Positions 41,444-47,491 of a stretch of 64,000 nucleotides of DNA are shown piece by piece (the stretch's first letter is position 1; each line of letters starts with the position of its first letter). Made by a program: the position numbers and the translations under genes. Source of the DNA: Deltaproteobacteria bacterium. Lineage in GTDB: Bacteria > Desulfobacterota > Desulfobacteria > Desulfobacterales > Desulfatibacillaceae. Location of the stretch: positions 62,001 to 126,000 of the forward strand of contig JACRLG010000023.1 in assembly GCA_016235345.1 (NCBI GenBank), written 5' to 3'. The notes beneath the pieces are model-generated. The model searched no databases. It was not told where the DNA came from and worked only from the letters and a program-made list of their open reading frames with translations.

Positions 41444-42322
41444 CTATTCCGAAGGCCAGGGGAGCCACCTGTCGGCAAGAGCGGGGGCGGATTCCCGGAA
41501 CTTGCGCTCCTCGTTGCGGCCAGTGCCGCCGAGCCATAAGGGGGGCAGGTCAAAGCGGGTAAGGGCGTGGGGGTTGAGCACCAGAAGCGCCACGTCGTCG
41601 TGGCAGAGAGTTTCCGCGTTCCGGGCAAGATAGCGCGAAAGCCGGTCAGCCGCTTCATCGGGCGGATAAAGGGCCGCGTACTGGCCGCACATGGACATCG
41701 GCGAAAGTTTGAGGGCGCGGGCAAGGTCAATGAGCCCGTCCGTGGCGAGAATTATCCGCTCCCGGCCCGTTGAAAGGGGAACCCTCGCCACCGTCCCCAC
41801 GCAGAGGCTTCTTCCCGCAAAGCACATGTCGGGCGGAGTTTTATACAGGATTTCGCCTGAGATTCCGTCCGCGATGGCGCAGAAGCTGTCCCCTCCGTTG
41901 GCTATCAGGGCCGAGAGTATCCCCCCCCGGTTTTCCAGGCACACCCCGCAGAAGGTGGCGGTGCGGCTGTAGGGCTGCTCCGCGTAACAGGAATTGAGTA
42001 GCGCCAGCAATTCTTCCGATTCTGCTGGCACAGGGCCGTCCCCAAGGGCCGCCATTATCCGGCCAAGGAATTCGCGGGAGGCGCGGGGGTGGCGCTCGCT
42101 TGCGTCCGCCACGGCGAAGAAGGCCCGCCCGAAATCGAGAAGAAGGCAGTCGCCGTTTCCGTGCCCGCTCTCGGCCTTGCCGCTGGCGGCAGTAACGGAG
42201 GCTGAAAGCGCGCCCTCGATTTTTACGGCCCGCCGCGCCGGATTATGAAGAACTGTTTCCAAAATATCGCGGGGGAAAAAGGGGCGAAAAGCCCTTTTTC
42301 CCCCCGCATGGTTCCTTCCCAT
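41444..42322 (-). CDS. PP2C/SpoIIE-like protein phosphatase
   Basis: 292 aa. PPM-type motifs: GDCLLLDFGRAFFAVADASERHP (aspartate cluster), ALIANGGDSFCAI, RIILATDGLIDLA and CHDDVALLVL. Metal-binding aspartates appear conserved although the first motif is atypical (normally VADGMGGH). It would dephosphorylate Ser/Thr proteins. Facing the pseudokinase gene tail-to-tail, it may form a functional pair with it or act on another kinase. higA ends 27 nt upstream. Confidence 0.75.
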   Translation of the reverse strand: MGRNHAGGKRAFRPFFPRDILETVLHNPARRAVKIEGALSASVTAASGKAESGHGNGDCLLLDFGRAFFAVADASERHPRASREFLGRIMAALGDGPVPAESEELLALLNSCYAEQPYSRTATFCGVCLENRGGILSALIANGGDSFCAIADGISGEILYKTPPDMCFAGRSLCVGTVARVPLSTGRERIILATDGLIDLARALKLSPMSMCGQYAALYPPDEAADRLSRYLARNAETLCHDDVALLVLNPHALTRFDLPPLWLGGTGRNEERKFRESAPALADRWLPWPSE

Positions 42323-42349: not shown

Positions 42350-42670
42350 CTATTCCGTTGGAATCTGCTCATTCGTCCGTGGCCTGATTTCCTCCTGGAT
42401 GGCCTTCAAGGATTTGTCCTTGGCCACGTCCAGATCGTAATCCATCTGGAGCCCAAGCCAGAACTCAGGGGAAACTCCGAAGAAGCGAGCCAGCCTGAGG
42501 GCCGTGTCGGCGGATATACCACGCTTGCCGTGGACAATCTCATTCACCCTCGCAGGTGGTATCTTAAGTTCGATTCCAAGCCGGGTCTGGCTCAGGCCCA
42601 GGGGCTCCATGAAATCCTCAAGGAGAATTTCGCCGGGATGGACCGGATCTAAAATGATGGTTTCAGACAT
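42350..42670 (-). CDS. higA: HigA-family antitoxin
   Basis: 106 aa. XRE-type HTH with the HigA signature start (ILDPVHPGEILLEDFMEPLGLSQTRLGIELKIPPARVNEIVHGKRGISADTALRLARFFGVSPEFWLGLQ). Neutralises HigB and represses the operon. The start at 42670 has AGGCAGGAAG upstream; a Met 6 codons earlier lacks it. The 87-nt gap to higB is longer than usual and holds a small inverted repeat. Confidence 0.92.
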   Translation of the reverse strand: MSETIILDPVHPGEILLEDFMEPLGLSQTRLGIELKIPPARVNEIVHGKRGISADTALRLARFFGVSPEFWLGLQMDYDLDVAKDKSLKAIQEEIRPRTNEQIPTE

Positions 42671-42690
42671 GGCTTCCTGCCTTTTCATAA

Positions 42691-42704
42691 ATAGTATGTG
42701 CTAT
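42691..42704. promoter_or_regulatory. Inverted repeat between higB and higA
   Basis: ATAG-TATGTG-CTAT in an AT-rich 87-nt spacer. Possible HigA operator or -10 region for separate higA transcription. Confidence 0.3.
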
Positions 42705-42757
42705 AGTTACAGGTGGCGTTGTGTTTTCTGTTAGTTCGATTTGTCGGTGCAGGCTTT

Positions 42758-43039
42758 TTAGTGGTAATCTTCAATTTTTACTTCAAAAGCCTCCCCGTTT
42801 TCCCATCGGAAGGTCGCCCTAAACCGGTTGTTGACTCTGATGGAATGCCTTCCGCTCATGTCTCCATGGAGTTTTTCCAGGCGGTTTCCCGGAATTACAG
42901 CCAAATCATTGAGGCTTTGAGCCCTGTTGAGCATCCGCAATGTCTTGAAGGCCGATTTCGCCACTGATTGCCATTTGGCGGGACACTCCCTGTCTTTGAA
43001 AAGGGCTTCGGTTTCCTTTGTTGCAAAGGTTTTAATCAT
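42758..43039 (-). CDS. higB: HigB-family toxin (RelE-like mRNA interferase)
   Basis: 93 aa. Pattern MIKTFATKETEALFKDRECPAKWQSVAKSAFKTLRMLNRAQSLNDLAVIPGNRLEKLHGDMSGRHSIRVNNRFRATFRWENGEAFEVKIEDYH matches HigB (basic RIRVN/FRATFRW strands, EDYH end). Cleaves mRNA at the ribosome when unopposed. Toxin-first order is the normal hig arrangement. ATG at 43039 has AAAGGAAC. The locus is AT-richer than its surroundings, consistent with acquisition. Confidence 0.92.
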   Translation of the reverse strand: MIKTFATKETEALFKDRECPAKWQSVAKSAFKTLRMLNRAQSLNDLAVIPGNRLEKLHGDMSGRHSIRVNNRFRATFRWENGEAFEVKIEDYH

Positions 43040-43149
43040 GGCGGTTCCTTTGTAAAGTTGGCAGATAGGAACCTCCGCCGACGCAAACAAAATAATACGC
43101 TTTCCATGTTACGTCAAGCAGAATTTTTATGTCTCAGGAATAAAGGAAA

Positions 43150-43204: not shown

Positions 43205-43666
43205 TCAGTCAATGATCCTGAAATAAAGGATGTCCCTGATTGTGCCCTTCATGACGTCCGCGAAGACCGGCTCCACCCGTGCGCCGATTTTTAAGGGGCG
43301 GTCGTCGGATAGTTCAACGAAGTGCTGGAAGAGGGTGTCCGCACCGTCGAAGCGGATGAACCCGTAGCCGTAGGGCACCGGTTTCTGCTTGCCCGTTTCG
43401 GGGTCGATGAAGGTGTAGCGTACAATGGTGTAGGTGCCGATGGTGCCTTGCGGGCCGACTTCCACGAACTCCGTGTTCTCGCAGAAGCAGCCGCCGCAGA
43501 CCTTCCTTGGAGGCACGTAAACCTTGCCGCATTTGTGGCATTTCGAGCCCACGATCCGGCGGTTGTCTTTCAACTCCTGGAAGAACTTGCTTCCGTAAAG
43601 CCCCACCGCGTAGTTGAAGGGCTGGGCCTGGTCCGAAGTAATTATGAGATGGTCGCCGCGCGCCAT
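43205..43666 (-). CDS. DUF35 Zn-ribbon/OB-fold protein (acyl-CoA partner), second copy
   Basis: 153 aa. Rubredoxin-like zinc ribbon GSKCHKCGKVYVPPRKVCGGCFC (two CxxC pairs), then an OB-fold acyl-CoA-binding half (GTIGTYTIVRYTFIDPETGKQKPVPYGYGFIRFDGADTLFQHF). DUF35 proteins are obligate partners of thiolases (BbsA, archaeal acetoacetyl-CoA thiolase complex) or Ltp2-type aldolases. It lies 12 nt after the Cys-less thiolase-like gene, its likely partner. AAGGAGAAAACATA precedes the ATG. Confidence 0.88.
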   Translation of the reverse strand: MARGDHLIITSDQAQPFNYAVGLYGSKFFQELKDNRRIVGSKCHKCGKVYVPPRKVCGGCFCENTEFVEVGPQGTIGTYTIVRYTFIDPETGKQKPVPYGYGFIRFDGADTLFQHFVELSDDRPLKIGARVEPVFADVMKGTIRDILYFRIID

Positions 43667-43678
43667 TATGTTTTCTCC

Positions 43679-44836
43679 TTAGCTGGGCTTCTTTTTTCCA
43701 TAGAGCAGCATATCCGTCCAAAAGCATCCGCCGAAGCCGGTGGAGACGGCCATCTTGACGTCCGGCACCTGTCTTTTGTCGGCTTTCCCCATTATCTGCA
43801 TGGATGCTTCGGCGCAGCGGATGAGCCCGGTGGCTCCGATGGGGTTGCAGGCTATGACGCCGCCCGACGGGTTTATGGGAATCTCGCCGCCCATGTCGGT
43901 TGCCCCGCTCCAGATGTATTCGGTGCCCTTGCCACGCGGCACGATACCCATTGCCTCTATCCAGATTATGCCCGCGAAGGAATAGGGCTGGTAAAGTTCT
44001 ATGACGTCTATTTCCTTGCGCGGTTCTTTGATTCCGGCCTTGCCGAAAAGGTCCAGGGCCGCGTATTTCATGGAATCTATCTGGCCCAAGTTCACGTCGC
44101 CCACGTAGGTGTAAGTGTGGCGGTTGGCGGTTCCCCAAATCCAGGCCGGAGTCGGGCAGATTTTCTCCGCGCAGTCTTCGCTTGCCATGATGACCGCGCA
44201 GGCCCCGTCGGTGCGGGGGCAGACATCCAGAAGATGAATGGGGTCCGAGAGCATGGGGGACTCCAAAACGTCTTCTATTGTGATTTCCTTGTGAAGCTGG
44301 GCGTGGGGGTTGTTGCAGGCGTGGCGGCGGTCCCGGACCGAGACCCTGGCGGCGTCGCGGTCGGTAAGGCCGAACTCGGTCTTGTAGGCCATGCCCTCGG
44401 CGGCAAGGCCCGCTATGGCCCCGGCGAACACAAGCCTGTCCCAGATGGGGTCAAAGGCGGTGGTTATCGCGCCCGTTGTGTCGCTTTCGGAGTTCTTTTC
44501 CCAGCCGATGACCAGCACCTTGTCGAAAAGCCCGGAGGCCACCATGTGGTAGCCGCCTATGGCCAGCGTCGAGCCGGTTGTGCCGCCGGTGGTGAGCTTG
44601 ATTATGGGCCTCATCACGCCGCCGGAGCCTGCCACGCTCCAGCAGTCCACGTAGTTGATGCCCTCGAAATGGTCCATGTTGCCGATGACTATGGCGTCGA
44701 TGTCGCTTATTTTAAGCTCTGCGTCGCCAAGGGCCTTCTGTACCGCCTCGGCGATCAGCTCCTGGCCGGTGACGTCTGGCCGGTGGCTCTTGTGAATGGT
44801 CTGGCCGGTGCCGACTACGGCTACTCGTTTTCCCAT
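43679..44836 (-). CDS. Thiolase-superfamily protein lacking catalytic Cys and His (Ltp2-like?)
   Basis: 385 aa, SCP-x-type thiolase fold (RVAVVGTGQTIHKSHRP start, GGTTGSTLAIGGYHMVASG, IPINPSGGVIACNPIGATGLIRCAE). Aligned with the neighbouring thiolase, the nucleophile Cys is replaced by Thr (T83 region) and the GHP histidine by CNP. A Claisen thiolase reaction is therefore unlikely. A similar loss is known in the DUF35-bound aldolase Ltp2, which cleaves beta-hydroxy-acyl-CoAs; ELYQPYSFAGI provides tyrosines where Ltp2 uses tyrosines. A structural, non-catalytic subunit is the alternative. GGAGGGCCAG precedes the ATG. Confidence 0.8.
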   Translation of the reverse strand: MGKRVAVVGTGQTIHKSHRPDVTGQELIAEAVQKALGDAELKISDIDAIVIGNMDHFEGINYVDCWSVAGSGGVMRPIIKLTTGGTTGSTLAIGGYHMVASGLFDKVLVIGWEKNSESDTTGAITTAFDPIWDRLVFAGAIAGLAAEGMAYKTEFGLTDRDAARVSVRDRRHACNNPHAQLHKEITIEDVLESPMLSDPIHLLDVCPRTDGACAVIMASEDCAEKICPTPAWIWGTANRHTYTYVGDVNLGQIDSMKYAALDLFGKAGIKEPRKEIDVIELYQPYSFAGIIWIEAMGIVPRGKGTEYIWSGATDMGGEIPINPSGGVIACNPIGATGLIRCAEASMQIMGKADKRQVPDVKMAVSTGFGGCFWTDMLLYGKKKPS

Positions 44837-44845
44837 CTGGCCCTC

Positions 44846-45991
44846 CTACTTTTCGCTTTTGAGAACCCACACGCAGTGGGACTGGCCGCAAAGACCGTTG
44901 ACACCCTGAGCCACCGCCGTTTTGGCCTTTTTCGCCTGGACCGCGCCCGCCTCCCCCCTAAGCTGCCGCACGCATTCGGCCATGCGGATGAGGCCCGCCG
45001 CGATGACCGGATGACCCGAAAGAAGCCCGCCGGATGCGTTGACCGGAAGAGCGCCTGTTACATTGAAGCGCCCGCTTTTGAGATCGTCCCTGGCCTTTCC
45101 GGCTTCGGCAAGGCCAAGGCCCTCAAGCCACATAAGCTCCTGGTGGGTGAAGGCGTCGTAAACCTCGCAAAGATCAATCTGTTTGGCGGGGTCCGTGATT
45201 CCGGCCATGGCGTAGGCCTTTTTTGCGGCGACCTTAAGGCTCTTGGGGTCGCTTAGGTCGCGGTCGCCAAGGTGGTAGGCGTCCGAGCAGAAACTCACCC
45301 CCTTCACCCATACCGGCTTGGTTTTTGCTTTTTTGGCCCGGTCCTCGCGGGCCAGAATTATGGCGCAGGCCCCGTCCGACACCGGCGAGCAGTCCAGCTT
45401 GTGAAGGGGGTCGGCGATCATCTCGCTTTTCAGAACCTCATCCACCGTAATCTTTGCCGGAAGCTGGGCATAGGGGTTGTGGAGGGCGTTGCCGTGGTTT
45501 TTCACCGACACCCGCGCGAGGTCCTCGGAGGTCGTCCCGGTCCTGGCCATGTAGATGTTGGCCTGAAGCGCGGCGGCGGTTATCATGTCCATGCCTAAAG
45601 CCCGCTCGTAAACCGGGTCGAAGGCCGCGTTTGTGATGAGGCTTGAAACCGACTCGCTGCCCTTGGTGTGGGCCGTCACCAGGGTCGTGCCGTAAGAGCC
45701 CGAAAGTATGCGGGTGAGCCCGTAGAAGGCCCCGAAGGTGCCGTCGCCCTCCACGCAGGAGCAGTTCTTGTTGCGCACACCCGAAGCGTCGCCCACGGCC
45801 ATGCAGGAGATGGTGCGTCCGTCCCAGAAGTCGTTGGAGGTGGTGATGACGTTATCCACGTCGTCTATGGTGAGGCCAGCATCGTCAAGGGCTTTGTTCA
45901 CGGCCTCCCACACCATGTCGGCGAAGTTCTCCGAGACCTTGTTGGCCTCTATCCTCGTCATGCCCATGCCGACGATCGCTATGTTTTCCAT
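44846..45991 (-). CDS. Thiolase family protein (SCP-x type, catalytic Cys and His present)
   Basis: 381 aa. MENIAIVGMGMTRIEANK start, CMAVGDASGVRNKNCSCVEGDG with candidate nucleophile C79 (or C77), DGACAIILA, CEVYDAFTHQELMWLEGLGL and VNASGGLLSGHPVIAAGLIRMAE with the catalytic His in GHP. It should cleave or form 3-ketoacyl-CoAs, probably together with the DUF35 protein encoded just upstream. Start at 45991 has GGGGAGATTTCAT; a Met five codons earlier is less likely. Separated from the thiolase-like gene by 9 nt. Confidence 0.88.
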   Translation of the reverse strand: MENIAIVGMGMTRIEANKVSENFADMVWEAVNKALDDAGLTIDDVDNVITTSNDFWDGRTISCMAVGDASGVRNKNCSCVEGDGTFGAFYGLTRILSGSYGTTLVTAHTKGSESVSSLITNAAFDPVYERALGMDMITAAALQANIYMARTGTTSEDLARVSVKNHGNALHNPYAQLPAKITVDEVLKSEMIADPLHKLDCSPVSDGACAIILAREDRAKKAKTKPVWVKGVSFCSDAYHLGDRDLSDPKSLKVAAKKAYAMAGITDPAKQIDLCEVYDAFTHQELMWLEGLGLAEAGKARDDLKSGRFNVTGALPVNASGGLLSGHPVIAAGLIRMAECVRQLRGEAGAVQAKKAKTAVAQGVNGLCGQSHCVWVLKSEK

Positions 45992-46018
45992 ATGAAATCT
46001 CCCCATGGAGTCAAGGAA

Positions 46019-46483
46019 CTATGCCGGTTCAAAGTGGGCGATATCGAGTATCCCGCCCTTGGGGTCATCCGCGAACACGGGCTTTACCCTCATCCCGATT
46101 TTGACATCTTCGGGGGCGCAGCCGTCCAGGATGTGCAAAAAGGCGTTGTCGGCTCCGTCAAGGGCGATGAGGGCGAAAATCACCGGCACTTTTTTGGTTC
46201 CCAGCGCCGCCAGCTTCCGGCGGGCCACGGTGAAGCCCGTGACCGTCCCGCCTCCGGGCAGGGCCTTTTCGGCTATGGCGTCCCCGCCGCAGCCGGGGCA
46301 TGCCTTGCGGGGCGGCACGCTCACCGCGCCGCAGGCCTCGCAGCGGCCCGCAACGATGGATTTTTCCGCAAGGCGCGCGAAAAAGGCGGCGGCGGTGTCG
46401 CCCGCCCACCAGCTGTAGGGCACGTTGATCTTGCTCTGGTAAACCTGCGGGGCGACTTTCCCCAAGTCCTGGTCAATGTTCAT
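46019..46483 (-). CDS. DUF35 Zn-ribbon/OB-fold protein, first copy
   Basis: 154 aa. Zinc ribbon AGRCEACGAVSVPPRKACPGCGGD and OB-fold half (GTVTGFTVARRKLAALGTKKVPVIFALIALDGADNAFLHIL). First gene of the operon, upstream of the Cys-containing thiolase and likely its partner. AAAAGGAGCC precedes the ATG. The operon's mirror order (DUF35, thiolase, thiolase-like, DUF35) suggests two heteromeric enzymes. Confidence 0.88.
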   Translation of the reverse strand: MNIDQDLGKVAPQVYQSKINVPYSWWAGDTAAAFFARLAEKSIVAGRCEACGAVSVPPRKACPGCGGDAIAEKALPGGGTVTGFTVARRKLAALGTKKVPVIFALIALDGADNAFLHILDGCAPEDVKIGMRVKPVFADDPKGGILDIAHFEPA

Positions 46484-46699: not shown

Positions 46700-47491
46700 A
46701 TGAGCTACAGGGAAATAATTCTTGAAATCAAAAATGAGATCGCGGTTCTCACCCTAAACCGGCCGGACACCCGTAACGTCATTTCCAGCGCCGCCATGAT
46801 AGATGAAATCGTGGAGGCGCTTTCCGCCCTGGACCGCGACGAATCGGTGAAGGTATTGGTGCTCACAGGCGCGGGAAGCGCCTTTTCGGCGGGTGGAAAC
46901 GTGAAGGACATGGCCAATCGCCTTGGAATGTTCGCGGGCACGGCGGACGAAATAGCCGAGAAATACCGCCAGGGCATACAGCGCATCCCACGGGCCTTCT
47001 ACGGCTTCCACCTTCCCGTGATCGCCGCCGTCAACGGCCCGGCCATAGGCGCGGGCTGCGATCTTGCGTGCATGTGCGACATCCGCATAGCAGGCGAACG
47101 GGCCAGCTTCGGCGAAACCTTCGGCCTTCTGGGCCTTGTTCCGGGCGACGGCGGGGCCTTTTTCCTCCAGCGCATAATCGGCTTTTCAAGAGCATCCCTT
47201 CTCACTTACACCTGCCGGGTCATAGACGCCAAAACCGCCGAACGCATGGGCCTTGTGAGCGAGGTTGTGCCCTCCGCCGAGCTCATGAAGAGGGCGCTTT
47301 CCATCGCAAGCGAGATAACCCGCCAGCCCAGGCGCACACTTCGCATGACAAAAAGGCTGATGCAGCTTTCCCGCGAACGCGGCCTCCTGGACGTCCTGGA
47401 CCTCTCCGCCACCTTCCAGGGGGTCTGCCACCACCAGCCCGAACACGAAAAGGCGGTGAACCGCTTCCTTATAAAGGATCAGGAGAAGTGA
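46700..47491 (+). CDS. Enoyl-CoA hydratase/isomerase family protein
   Basis: 263 aa crotonase fold. Oxyanion-hole segments are SAFSAGGNVKDMANRLG and NGPAIGAGCDLACMCDIRIAGERASFGETF. The second catalytic Glu region reads LLGLVPGDGGAFFLQRIIGFSRA, with Asp/Gly where many hydratases have Glu, so hydratase versus isomerase or another crotonase reaction is unclear. It is divergent from the thiolase operon across a 216-nt AT-rich region, and together they may form one acyl-CoA degradation module. GAAGGAAGACGGAA precedes the ATG. Confidence 0.88.
   Translation: MSYREIILEIKNEIAVLTLNRPDTRNVISSAAMIDEIVEALSALDRDESVKVLVLTGAGSAFSAGGNVKDMANRLGMFAGTADEIAEKYRQGIQRIPRAFYGFHLPVIAAVNGPAIGAGCDLACMCDIRIAGERASFGETFGLLGLVPGDGGAFFLQRIIGFSRASLLTYTCRVIDAKTAERMGLVSEVVPSAELMKRALSIASEITRQPRRTLRMTKRLMQLSRERGLLDVLDLSATFQGVCHHQPEHEKAVNRFLIKDQEK

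Follow-up and report, generated by a model that had tools for sequence, protein, structure and literature searches.

A conserved gene module with two thiolase-like proteins that lack the nucleophilic cysteine and two DUF35 proteins: a candidate heteromeric retro-aldolase related to Ltp3-Ltp4

Ltp3 and Ltp4 are known mainly from actinobacterial sterol genetics. Two papers describe them as the subunits of a heteromeric aldol-lyase that acts on C24-branched sterols (PMC6678751, PMC6593523), and their genes are arranged in the order Rv3521-ltp4-ltp3 (PMC6429209). A second type of assembly, represented by Ltp2-ChsH2 and Sal-Shy (6OK1, 9MYR), has a homodimeric aldolase and a single type of DUF35, and the catalytic roles of the Ltp2 and Sal active-site residues have been described (PMC12329534). 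Here, we analyze a locus whose closest known counterpart is the actinobacterial Ltp4/Ltp3 system with its double-DUF35 protein. It lies in a window of 64,000 nucleotides from a Deltaproteobacteria bacterium (contig JACRLG010000023.1, positions 62,001 to 126,000 of the forward strand), and all positions below are those of the window.

The locus contains four genes closely packed on the minus strand, with gaps of 9 to 12 bp, in the order DUF35-a, thl-1, thl-2, DUF35-b (Table 1). Both thiolase-like proteins are assigned by Pfam to thiolase families (PF22691, PF00108) and not to synthase families, and both DUF35 proteins match PF01796 and PF12172. Gene calls and Pfam bear out all four members of the mirror operon proposed in a first-pass annotation, and the divergent crotonase gene noted beside it is also present; besides the crotonase, no catabolic genes were recognized adjoining the module in the window. 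The mirror order is not a product of chance, since it recurs in 29 of the fetched modules; in 34 others, both DUF35 genes follow thl-2. The conserved four-gene set is common to many anaerobic bacteria and some archaea, ranging from Desulfobacterota to Asgard archaea, with further representatives in Spirochaetota, Chloroflexota, and Actinomycetota.

Table 1. Features of the locus (window positions)
Feature	Position	Strand	Description
DUF35-a	46019-46483	-	154 aa; zinc ribbon and OB fold; first gene of the operon; Pfam PF01796 48 bits, PF12172 43 bits
thl-1	44846-46006	-	386 aa; thiolase-like, Ltp4 side; VEGDG, Y283-D-A-F, H332; from Pfam, conservation, AF2, and tree
thl-2	43679-44836	-	385 aa; thiolase-like, Ltp3 side; TTGGTTG (G85), Y282, P284, N331
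DUF35-b	43205-43666	-	153 aa; Pfam PF01796 45.5 bits, PF12172 34.5 bits
PP2C/SpoIIE-like phosphatase	41444-42322	-	292 aa; Pfam SpoIIE at cut-off
Crotonase-family gene, divergent	46700-47491	+	PRK09245 337.6 bits (cut-off 354)

The first-pass annotation had taken C79 of thl-1 as a candidate nucleophile and had regarded thl-2 as the only member of the pair without a catalytic cysteine. Residue 79 of thl-1 is Asn; the nearby cysteines are C82 and C84, the latter of which is numbered 79 when counting starts at Met6. The nucleophile column of thl-1 is Gly in the alignment, with the exact column varying with gap placement among E86, G87, and G89 and never falling on C84. In reference thiolases, the nucleophilic Cys is found at the N-terminus of the active-site helix (13/13), and in the AF2 model of thl-1 (thiolase fold, pLDDT 90), C82 and C84 belong to strand 81-86, which precedes loop 87-88 and the helix that begins at 89. 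Of the 39 orthologs, 6 retain C82 and 18 retain C84, and all 101 of the thl-1 relatives compared have Gly, Ser, or Ala at the Cys column. Alignment, model, and conservation together rule out C79/C84 as the nucleophile. The GHP histidine reported for thl-1 is present (H332), and GHP is the only one of the two thiolase His motifs (HDAF/HDCF and GHP) that the window protein keeps.

The absence of Cys from thl-2 was called correctly, but the residue in its place is not Thr: the nucleophile column holds G85, which sits between T83 and T86-T87 and is Gly in 115/115 relatives. The Cys column is Gly in both proteins, and neither has the nucleophilic Cys of the DUF35-associated thiolases (BbsB, SCP2, and archaeal type) or the full His set (HDAF/HDCF plus GHP) of Cys thiolases. 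A different active-site Cys, which the annotation had named as evidence against its reading of thl-2, was sought in C206, the sole near-invariant Cys of thl-2 (99%). The DGA loop in which it lies also contains a Cys in SCP2 thiolase and Ltp2, alongside the active-site residues that these enzymes have themselves; C206 therefore looks ancestral and was rejected as an alternative nucleophile. The CNP motif noted in thl-2 was confirmed (N331); Asn is found there in 115/115 sequences, at the column of Ltp2 Y344 and Sal Q352. Y282, which is Tyr in 113/115 sequences, occupies the HDAF-His column, the same column as Ltp2 Y294 and Sal Y302. The invariance of the G85/Y282/N331/G369 set in more than 110 diverse thl-2 sequences suggests catalysis, and thl-2 (AF2 model pLDDT, 90) is probably the catalytic subunit. 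The same invariance argues against a noncatalytic carrier or scaffold, in which the pair would hold CoA esters or sterols for partner enzymes. Such a role would accommodate the loss of both nucleophiles, the SCP2 lipid-binding domain fusions of relatives, and the older name "lipid-transfer protein," but it is very improbable given also that the papers cited above report ltp3/ltp4 as aldol lyases (PMC6593523, PMC6678751).

The two thiolase-like genes are inherited together. With one real exception (L094), thl-1 immediately precedes thl-2 in nearly all modules whose upstream sequence extends far enough, and the thl-1 and thl-2 distance matrices of 97 pairs correlate with an r of 0.83 (permutation maximum, 0.15), a value that ignores species kinship. 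Phylogenetically, thl-1, thl-2, and the Cys thiolases with Ltp2 and Sal form three separate groups. The tree and the co-inheritance make one heteromeric enzyme most likely, rather than a thiolase plus an aldolase. The annotation had named a single heteromeric thiolase as the outcome that would contradict it; a heteromer now seems the best description, but the enzyme is probably an aldolase and not a thiolase.

The annotation itself had proposed two enzymes acting on successive CoA esters, a DUF35-bound thiolase (thl-1) and a DUF35-bound retro-aldolase (thl-2). Each thiolase-like gene does adjoin a DUF35 gene, the two DUF35s belong to different lineages, and thl-1 of the window's clade keeps GHP and YDAF. 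We nevertheless consider this division of labor highly unlikely: the nucleophile is missing from every thl-1 relative, thl-1 almost never occurs apart from thl-2, across the family it has degenerated further than thl-2, and the Tyr and His are also lost in other thl-1 clades. Two active aldolase sites, in a heteromer or in two homomers, with thl-1 (Y283, H332) and thl-2 (Y282, N331) acting on different branched hydroxyacyl-CoAs, would be consistent with the two DUF35 lineages and with conservation in the window's clade (n = 39), where thl-1 has Tyr in 33, Asp in 35, Ala-Phe as in the YDHF motif, and His in 29. Judged by these residues, thl-1 of this clade could be catalytic too. Across the wider family, however, the HDAF-His column of thl-1 is variable (39 Tyr, 39 Ser, 4 His), as is the GHP-His column (46 Asn, 33 His), and a partner in Rhodococcus is reduced to 304 aa; we regard two active aldolase sites as unlikely. 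A 1,058-aa open reading frame in locus L134 is a possible thl-1 fusion; no second Pfam domain was found in it.

Actinobacterial modules have the arrangement DUF35-DUF35 protein, PRK07937 "lipid-transfer protein," PRK08313 protein, the same order as Rv3521-ltp4-ltp3; here, these are putative Ltp3/Ltp4 genes, assigned from family models, gene order, and annotation. In Tsukamurella and Streptomyces clavuligerus, one protein carries two PF01796 domains. The window operon likewise combines two adjacent, nonidentical thiolase-like genes with two DUF35 domains, and its subunits share clades with the actinobacterial ones. The thl-2 and Ltp3-like (PRK08313) proteins form one clade, with the Ltp3-like sequences of L156 and L157 nested inside (fork 99), and all thl-1 and Ltp4-like (PRK07937) sequences fall on one side of a branch with 99% support; the Ltp4-like sequences of L154 and L157 are placed to that side only. 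The window proteins score below the curated NCBIfam cut-offs (thl-2, 342 bits versus 514 for PRK08313; thl-1, 196 versus 419 for PRK07937), which places them in the same broad family but outside the curated subfamily. The window locus also differs in that its DUF35s are separate genes, thl-1 is full length, the host is anaerobic, a PP2C-like gene belongs to the operon, and no sterol catabolic genes were recognized there.

The resemblance to Ltp2 and Sal comprises the thiolase fold (Z 46), a DUF35 partner, and G85 and Y282 of thl-2 in the same columns as the Gly and Tyr of 6OK1. Together with the MaoC-DUF35 fusions of related modules, this upholds Ltp2-like retro-aldol chemistry, suggested earlier, as a direction. 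Membership in the Ltp2/Sal group is excluded by clade and by the second catalytic residue, which is Y344 in Ltp2 or C304 in Sal. In thl-2, these are replaced by Asn (N331) and Pro (P284), a difference that counts against a retro-aldol reaction. In the tree, Ltp2 lies outside both the thl-1 and the thl-2 clade: 6OK1 and 9MYR group with 4U4E (99), with partial rows from the PDB alignments. BbsAB (7PXP/7PYT), in which BbsA is the DUF35 partner, and SCP2-type thiolases (6HSJ) have the same fold (Z 48 to 51) but keep the Cys, HDAF, and GHP, whereas thl-1 and thl-2 lack the Cys and the HDAF His. The best fold match of both proteins (Z 54 to 55) is an assembly in which DUF35 scaffolds two different enzymes of the thiolase superfamily, a thiolase that keeps its Cys and a synthase from a different branch; no biosynthetic neighbors were found at the window module. 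PhlABC and MucABC, in which thiolase-fold chains occur together with a DUF35-type subunit, are structural neighbors as well (Z 47 to 50). Their similar makeup and fold could point to a C-C bond-forming or hydrolytic enzyme (aldol condensation, PhlABC-like Friedel-Crafts acyl transfer, decarboxylation, or retro-Claisen hydrolysis). We regard this as improbable, because acyl-enzyme transfer requires the Cys missing here and the neighbors in relatives are catabolic, namely, acyl-CoA dehydrogenases, acyl-CoA ligases, CoA-transferases, MaoC/ECH proteins, and BKACE.

Two DUF35 lineages accompany the thl pair despite changing gene order: DUF35-a occupies the upstream or second-downstream position, and DUF35-b, a separate lineage, occupies the first-downstream position. 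All four zinc-ribbon cysteines (C48, C51, C62, and C65 in DUF35-a; C43, C46, C57, and C60 in DUF35-b) are present in both window proteins and in >97% of 154 relatives. Among relatives, DUF35 is fused to MaoC hydratase, SCP2, acyl-CoA ligase, or BKACE. A paralogous module in the same genome encodes an acyl-CoA ligase-SCP2 (×3)-DUF35 fusion and a DUF35-MaoC fusion, a pairing of hydratase and DUF35 like that in ChsH2-Ltp2 and Shy-Sal. BKACE, which consumes β-keto acids, forms a fusion with DUF35 in nine loci, and in ∼27/80 loci it is encoded no more than ∼8 kb from the module, compared with ∼0.2 expected (20 BKACE genes in 30 related genomes); none is present in the window genome, and our literature search found no paper linking BKACE with DUF35. 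From the SCP2 fusions and the kinship with Ltp3/Ltp4, steroid-like substrates are possible for the window locus.

Based on gene content, the absence of both nucleophiles, pair co-inheritance, the conserved Tyr/Asn, the fold, and the fusions and neighbors of relatives, we infer, with a probability of roughly 0.6, that the product of the locus is a single heteromeric retro-aldolase, scaffolded by DUF35, in which neither thiolase-fold subunit has an acyl-accepting Cys. The assembly would contain thl-1, thl-2, and one DUF35 of each lineage. It would most likely bind a 3-hydroxyacyl-CoA with a branched β carbon, for which oxidation to a ketone and thiolysis are impossible. Y282 of thl-2 would take the hydroxyl proton, the Cα-Cβ bond would break, and an acyl-CoA and a ketone (or β-keto acid) would leave. 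A broader version is offered tentatively: an ancient four-component, nucleophile-less thiolase-fold aldolase that needs no oxygen to remove the β branches of isoprenoid or sterol-like CoA esters, with a tethered MaoC performing hydration, HMG-CoA lyase-like cleavage passing a β-keto acid to a tethered BKACE, an active site of a third type (Tyr/Asn), and a partner subunit drifting toward a pseudo-enzyme. The two-thiolase, two-DUF35 plan is now seen beyond actinobacteria, across anaerobic bacteria and Asgard archaea, and the fusions point to its partners (hydratase, acyl-CoA ligase, sterol-carrier domain, and β-keto-acid cleavage enzyme). The anaerobic cutting of branched isoprenoid or sterol-like chains thus becomes a testable question, and the thiolase label that current automatic annotation gives to proteins of the thl-1/thl-2 type should be avoided.

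Two neighboring genes were also considered. The crotonase has close orthologs at the module in two relatives only (73% and 59%) and lacks the first hydratase Glu, with FGETF where hydratases have TEV/PEI. It is a weak candidate for the pathway hydratase and was set aside as such on both grounds; it is a possible partner of the module. HigBA was rejected as a part of the module, since relatives have DUF35-b adjoining the phosphatase gene without it. The PP2C-like phosphatase gene lies 3′ of the module across the window's clade, and in ∼14 loci its homologs, in which D58, D73, D195, and D242 are invariant, follow DUF35-b directly or at a short distance, in several across gaps of −16 to 24 bp. 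We take the PP2C/SpoIIE-like phosphatase gene to be the fifth member of the ancestral operon.

The window operon comprises two thiolase-like genes, thl-1 and thl-2, and two genes for DUF35 partners, DUF35-a and DUF35-b, which follow one another on the minus strand, 9 to 12 bp apart. Pfam assignments bear out the gene set described in the first-pass annotation. The divergent crotonase beside it is also real, but the candidate nucleophile assigned there to the first thiolase is not confirmed. The nearest curated models were PRK06065/06064 for thl-1 (299 and 296 bits) and PRK08313 for thl-2 (342 bits), all below their own cut-offs.

Genes of the operon and its flanks in the window
Feature	Position	Strand	Remark
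SpoIIE/PP2C-like phosphatase gene	41444-42322	-	kept behind DUF35-b in relatives
HigB-HigA-like pair: HigB-like toxin (PF05015) and HTH antitoxin-type gene	42350-43090	-	between DUF35-b and phosphatase
DUF35-b	43205-43666	-	zinc-ribbon/OB-fold DUF35 by Pfam
thl-2	43679-44836	-	thiolase-like by Pfam
thl-1	44846-46006	-	thiolase-like by Pfam
DUF35-a	46019-46483	-	zinc-ribbon/OB-fold DUF35 by Pfam
Crotonase-family gene	46700-47491	+	divergent from operon

An alignment placed the window thiolases, both modeled with a thiolase fold, beside PDB thiolases and ten further thiolase-like genes taken from this genome and from its relatives. The nucleophile column, Cys in 13/13 reference thiolases, is Gly in all 115 relatives of thl-2, where the annotation too had seen no cysteine, and Gly (86), Ser (11), or Ala (4) in the 101 relatives of thl-1. 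The exact thl-1 column shifts with gap placement, and none of the placements puts Cys there. The nucleophile of thiolases is carried on the loop and helix that follow strand 81-86; the previously proposed C79 (C84 of thl-1 numbered from Met6) lies with C82 within this strand, ahead of the loop and helix (AlphaFold2 model, pLDDT 90), and both are poorly kept (C84 in 18/39 orthologs, C82 in 6/39). At the columns of the thiolase HDAF and GHP histidines, thl-2 has Y282 (Tyr in 113/115) and N331 (Asn in 115/115). Because the same columns vary across the thl-1 family (Tyr 39 and Ser 39; Asn 46 and His 33), thl-2 is the likelier catalytic subunit; the window's own clade, however, keeps Tyr in 33/39 and His in 29/39, so that thl-1 may hold a second active site.

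Scanning species genomes with thl-2 relatives yielded 80 loci, distributed among Desulfobacterota, Spirochaetota, Chloroflexota, Actinomycetota, Acidobacteriota, Pseudomonadota, Bacillota, Jordarchaeia, Lokiarchaeia, Bathyarchaeota, and others. In nearly all, thl-1 immediately precedes thl-2, and two DUF35 genes are their neighbors; the breaks are mostly contig ends, with one real exception (locus L094). Pairwise distances of thl-1 and thl-2 across 97 matched pairs, species kinship left in, correlate at r 0.83, whereas permutations reach at most 0.15. The DUF35s fall into two main lineages: in loci where both follow the thiolase pair, the first downstream DUF35 groups with DUF35-b and the second with DUF35-a, and since both lineages are present in either order, the set stays whole despite the change. 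A tree of 246 rows built by a quick method separates, with supported branches, thl-1, thl-2, and a group of Cys thiolases with Ltp2 and Sal, the Cys-less steroid side-chain aldolases. Full modules also occur in Asgard archaea (Lokiarchaeia L098, L099, L102, and L103, with a divergent BKACE gene nearby; Jordarchaeia L091, L097, and L109).

The pair is co-inherited and Cys is absent from both members, so the suggested thiolase plus separate retro-aldolase is not supported, while its retro-aldol direction is supported; co-inheritance points to a single heteromer, the outcome the annotation had set against its own proposal. With a probability of roughly 0.6, we read the locus as encoding a heteromeric, DUF35-scaffolded retro-aldolase of two Cys-less subunits. 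Y282 of thl-2 shares a column with the Tyr residues that are catalytic in Ltp2 (Tyr294) and in Sal (Tyr302) (PMC12329534), whereas Asn and Pro occupy the positions of their second catalytic residues, Tyr344 and Cys304, respectively. Separately, contig 6 of the same genome carries a divergent Cys-less thiolase-like gene beside DUF35 and crotonase genes (L039:6469-8982); its protein clusters with Sal/Ltp2 on a very long branch.

Plasmids of Tsukamurella and Streptomyces clavuligerus resemble the window operon in having two different thiolase-like genes and two DUF35 domains, there in one protein followed by PRK07937 ("lipid-transfer protein"; 593 and 550 bits) and PRK08313 (734 and 713 bits). 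Their predicted orthology to Ltp3/Ltp4 rests on family models, gene order, and length. Rv3521, ltp4 (Rv3522), and ltp3 (Rv3523) lie in a row in M. tuberculosis (PMC6429209), and Ltp3-Ltp4 is described as a heteromeric aldol-lyase that acts once the substrate is hydrated, cutting C24-C25 in branched sterol side chains (PMC6678751); both are also listed as aldol lyases (PMC6593523). The two-thiolase, two-DUF35 plan reaches beyond Actinomycetota, to anaerobes and Asgard archaea. On Rhodococcus plasmid pLP1 the thl-1 partner is down to 304 amino acids, in line with a degenerating subunit.

The genome's contig 28 holds a second, paralogous pair (L069:8754-15203) with fused DUF35s, [acyl-CoA ligase - three SCP2 - DUF35] and [DUF35 - MaoC], followed directly by genes for a URO-D-type methyltransferase and a B12-binding protein. 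The paralogous pair of Syntrophaceae and Spirochaetota, which several loci carry immediately ahead of a window-type module, has [SCP2 x2 - DUF35] and [DUF35 - BKACE]; DUF35-BKACE fusions occur at L074, L075, L078, L079, L080, L139, L149, L150, and L151, and the literature searched yielded no paper on this link. The 84 neighbors of window-type modules include acyl-CoA dehydrogenases (13), acyl-CoA ligases (12), MaoC (7), CoA-transferases (6), TetR regulators (5), and BKACE (4), with crotonases and BKACE in addition around paralogous modules. BKACE homologs lie in ∼27 of the 80 17-kb loci, across ∼7 thl-2 clades. The background density, 20 BKACE genes in 30 related genomes or ∼0.16 per Mb, would predict ∼0.2. 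That the hydratase is tethered suggests that hydration precedes cleavage, and the BKACE link suggests a beta-keto acid product. The published scheme for C24-branched sterols runs from branch carboxylation through hydration to retro-aldol cleavage; on this scheme, we infer, the leftover ketone would be a beta-keto acid.

The proposed thl-1/thl-2 heteromer, its CoA site braced by both DUF35s, would bind a hydrated, branched 3-hydroxyacyl-CoA, for which sterol-like, isoprenoid, and other branched esters fit as candidates. Y282 of thl-2 would accept the hydroxyl proton, the bond would break, and the enolate would gain a proton from a donor; acyl-CoA would then leave together with either a ketone or a beta-keto acid. 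Because the window genome has no BKACE, it would handle this product otherwise.

In relatives the operon runs unbroken from DUF35-b into the phosphatase gene; in the window the HigB-HigA-like pair splits it. Within the window's clade the phosphatase gene is conserved as the fifth of the operon, with homologs just after DUF35-b in ∼14 loci, spaced -16 to 24 bp in several. D58, D73, D195, and D242 are invariant (n = 14), matching the four Asp expected at a PP2C metal site. Hydratases carry TEV/PEI...PGAGG where the window crotonase has FGETF...PGDGG; lacking the first catalytic Glu, it is unlikely to be an ordinary enoyl-CoA hydratase. Loci with the phosphatase gene behind DUF35-b include L054, L055, L056, L057, L074, L075, L078, L079, L080, and L081.
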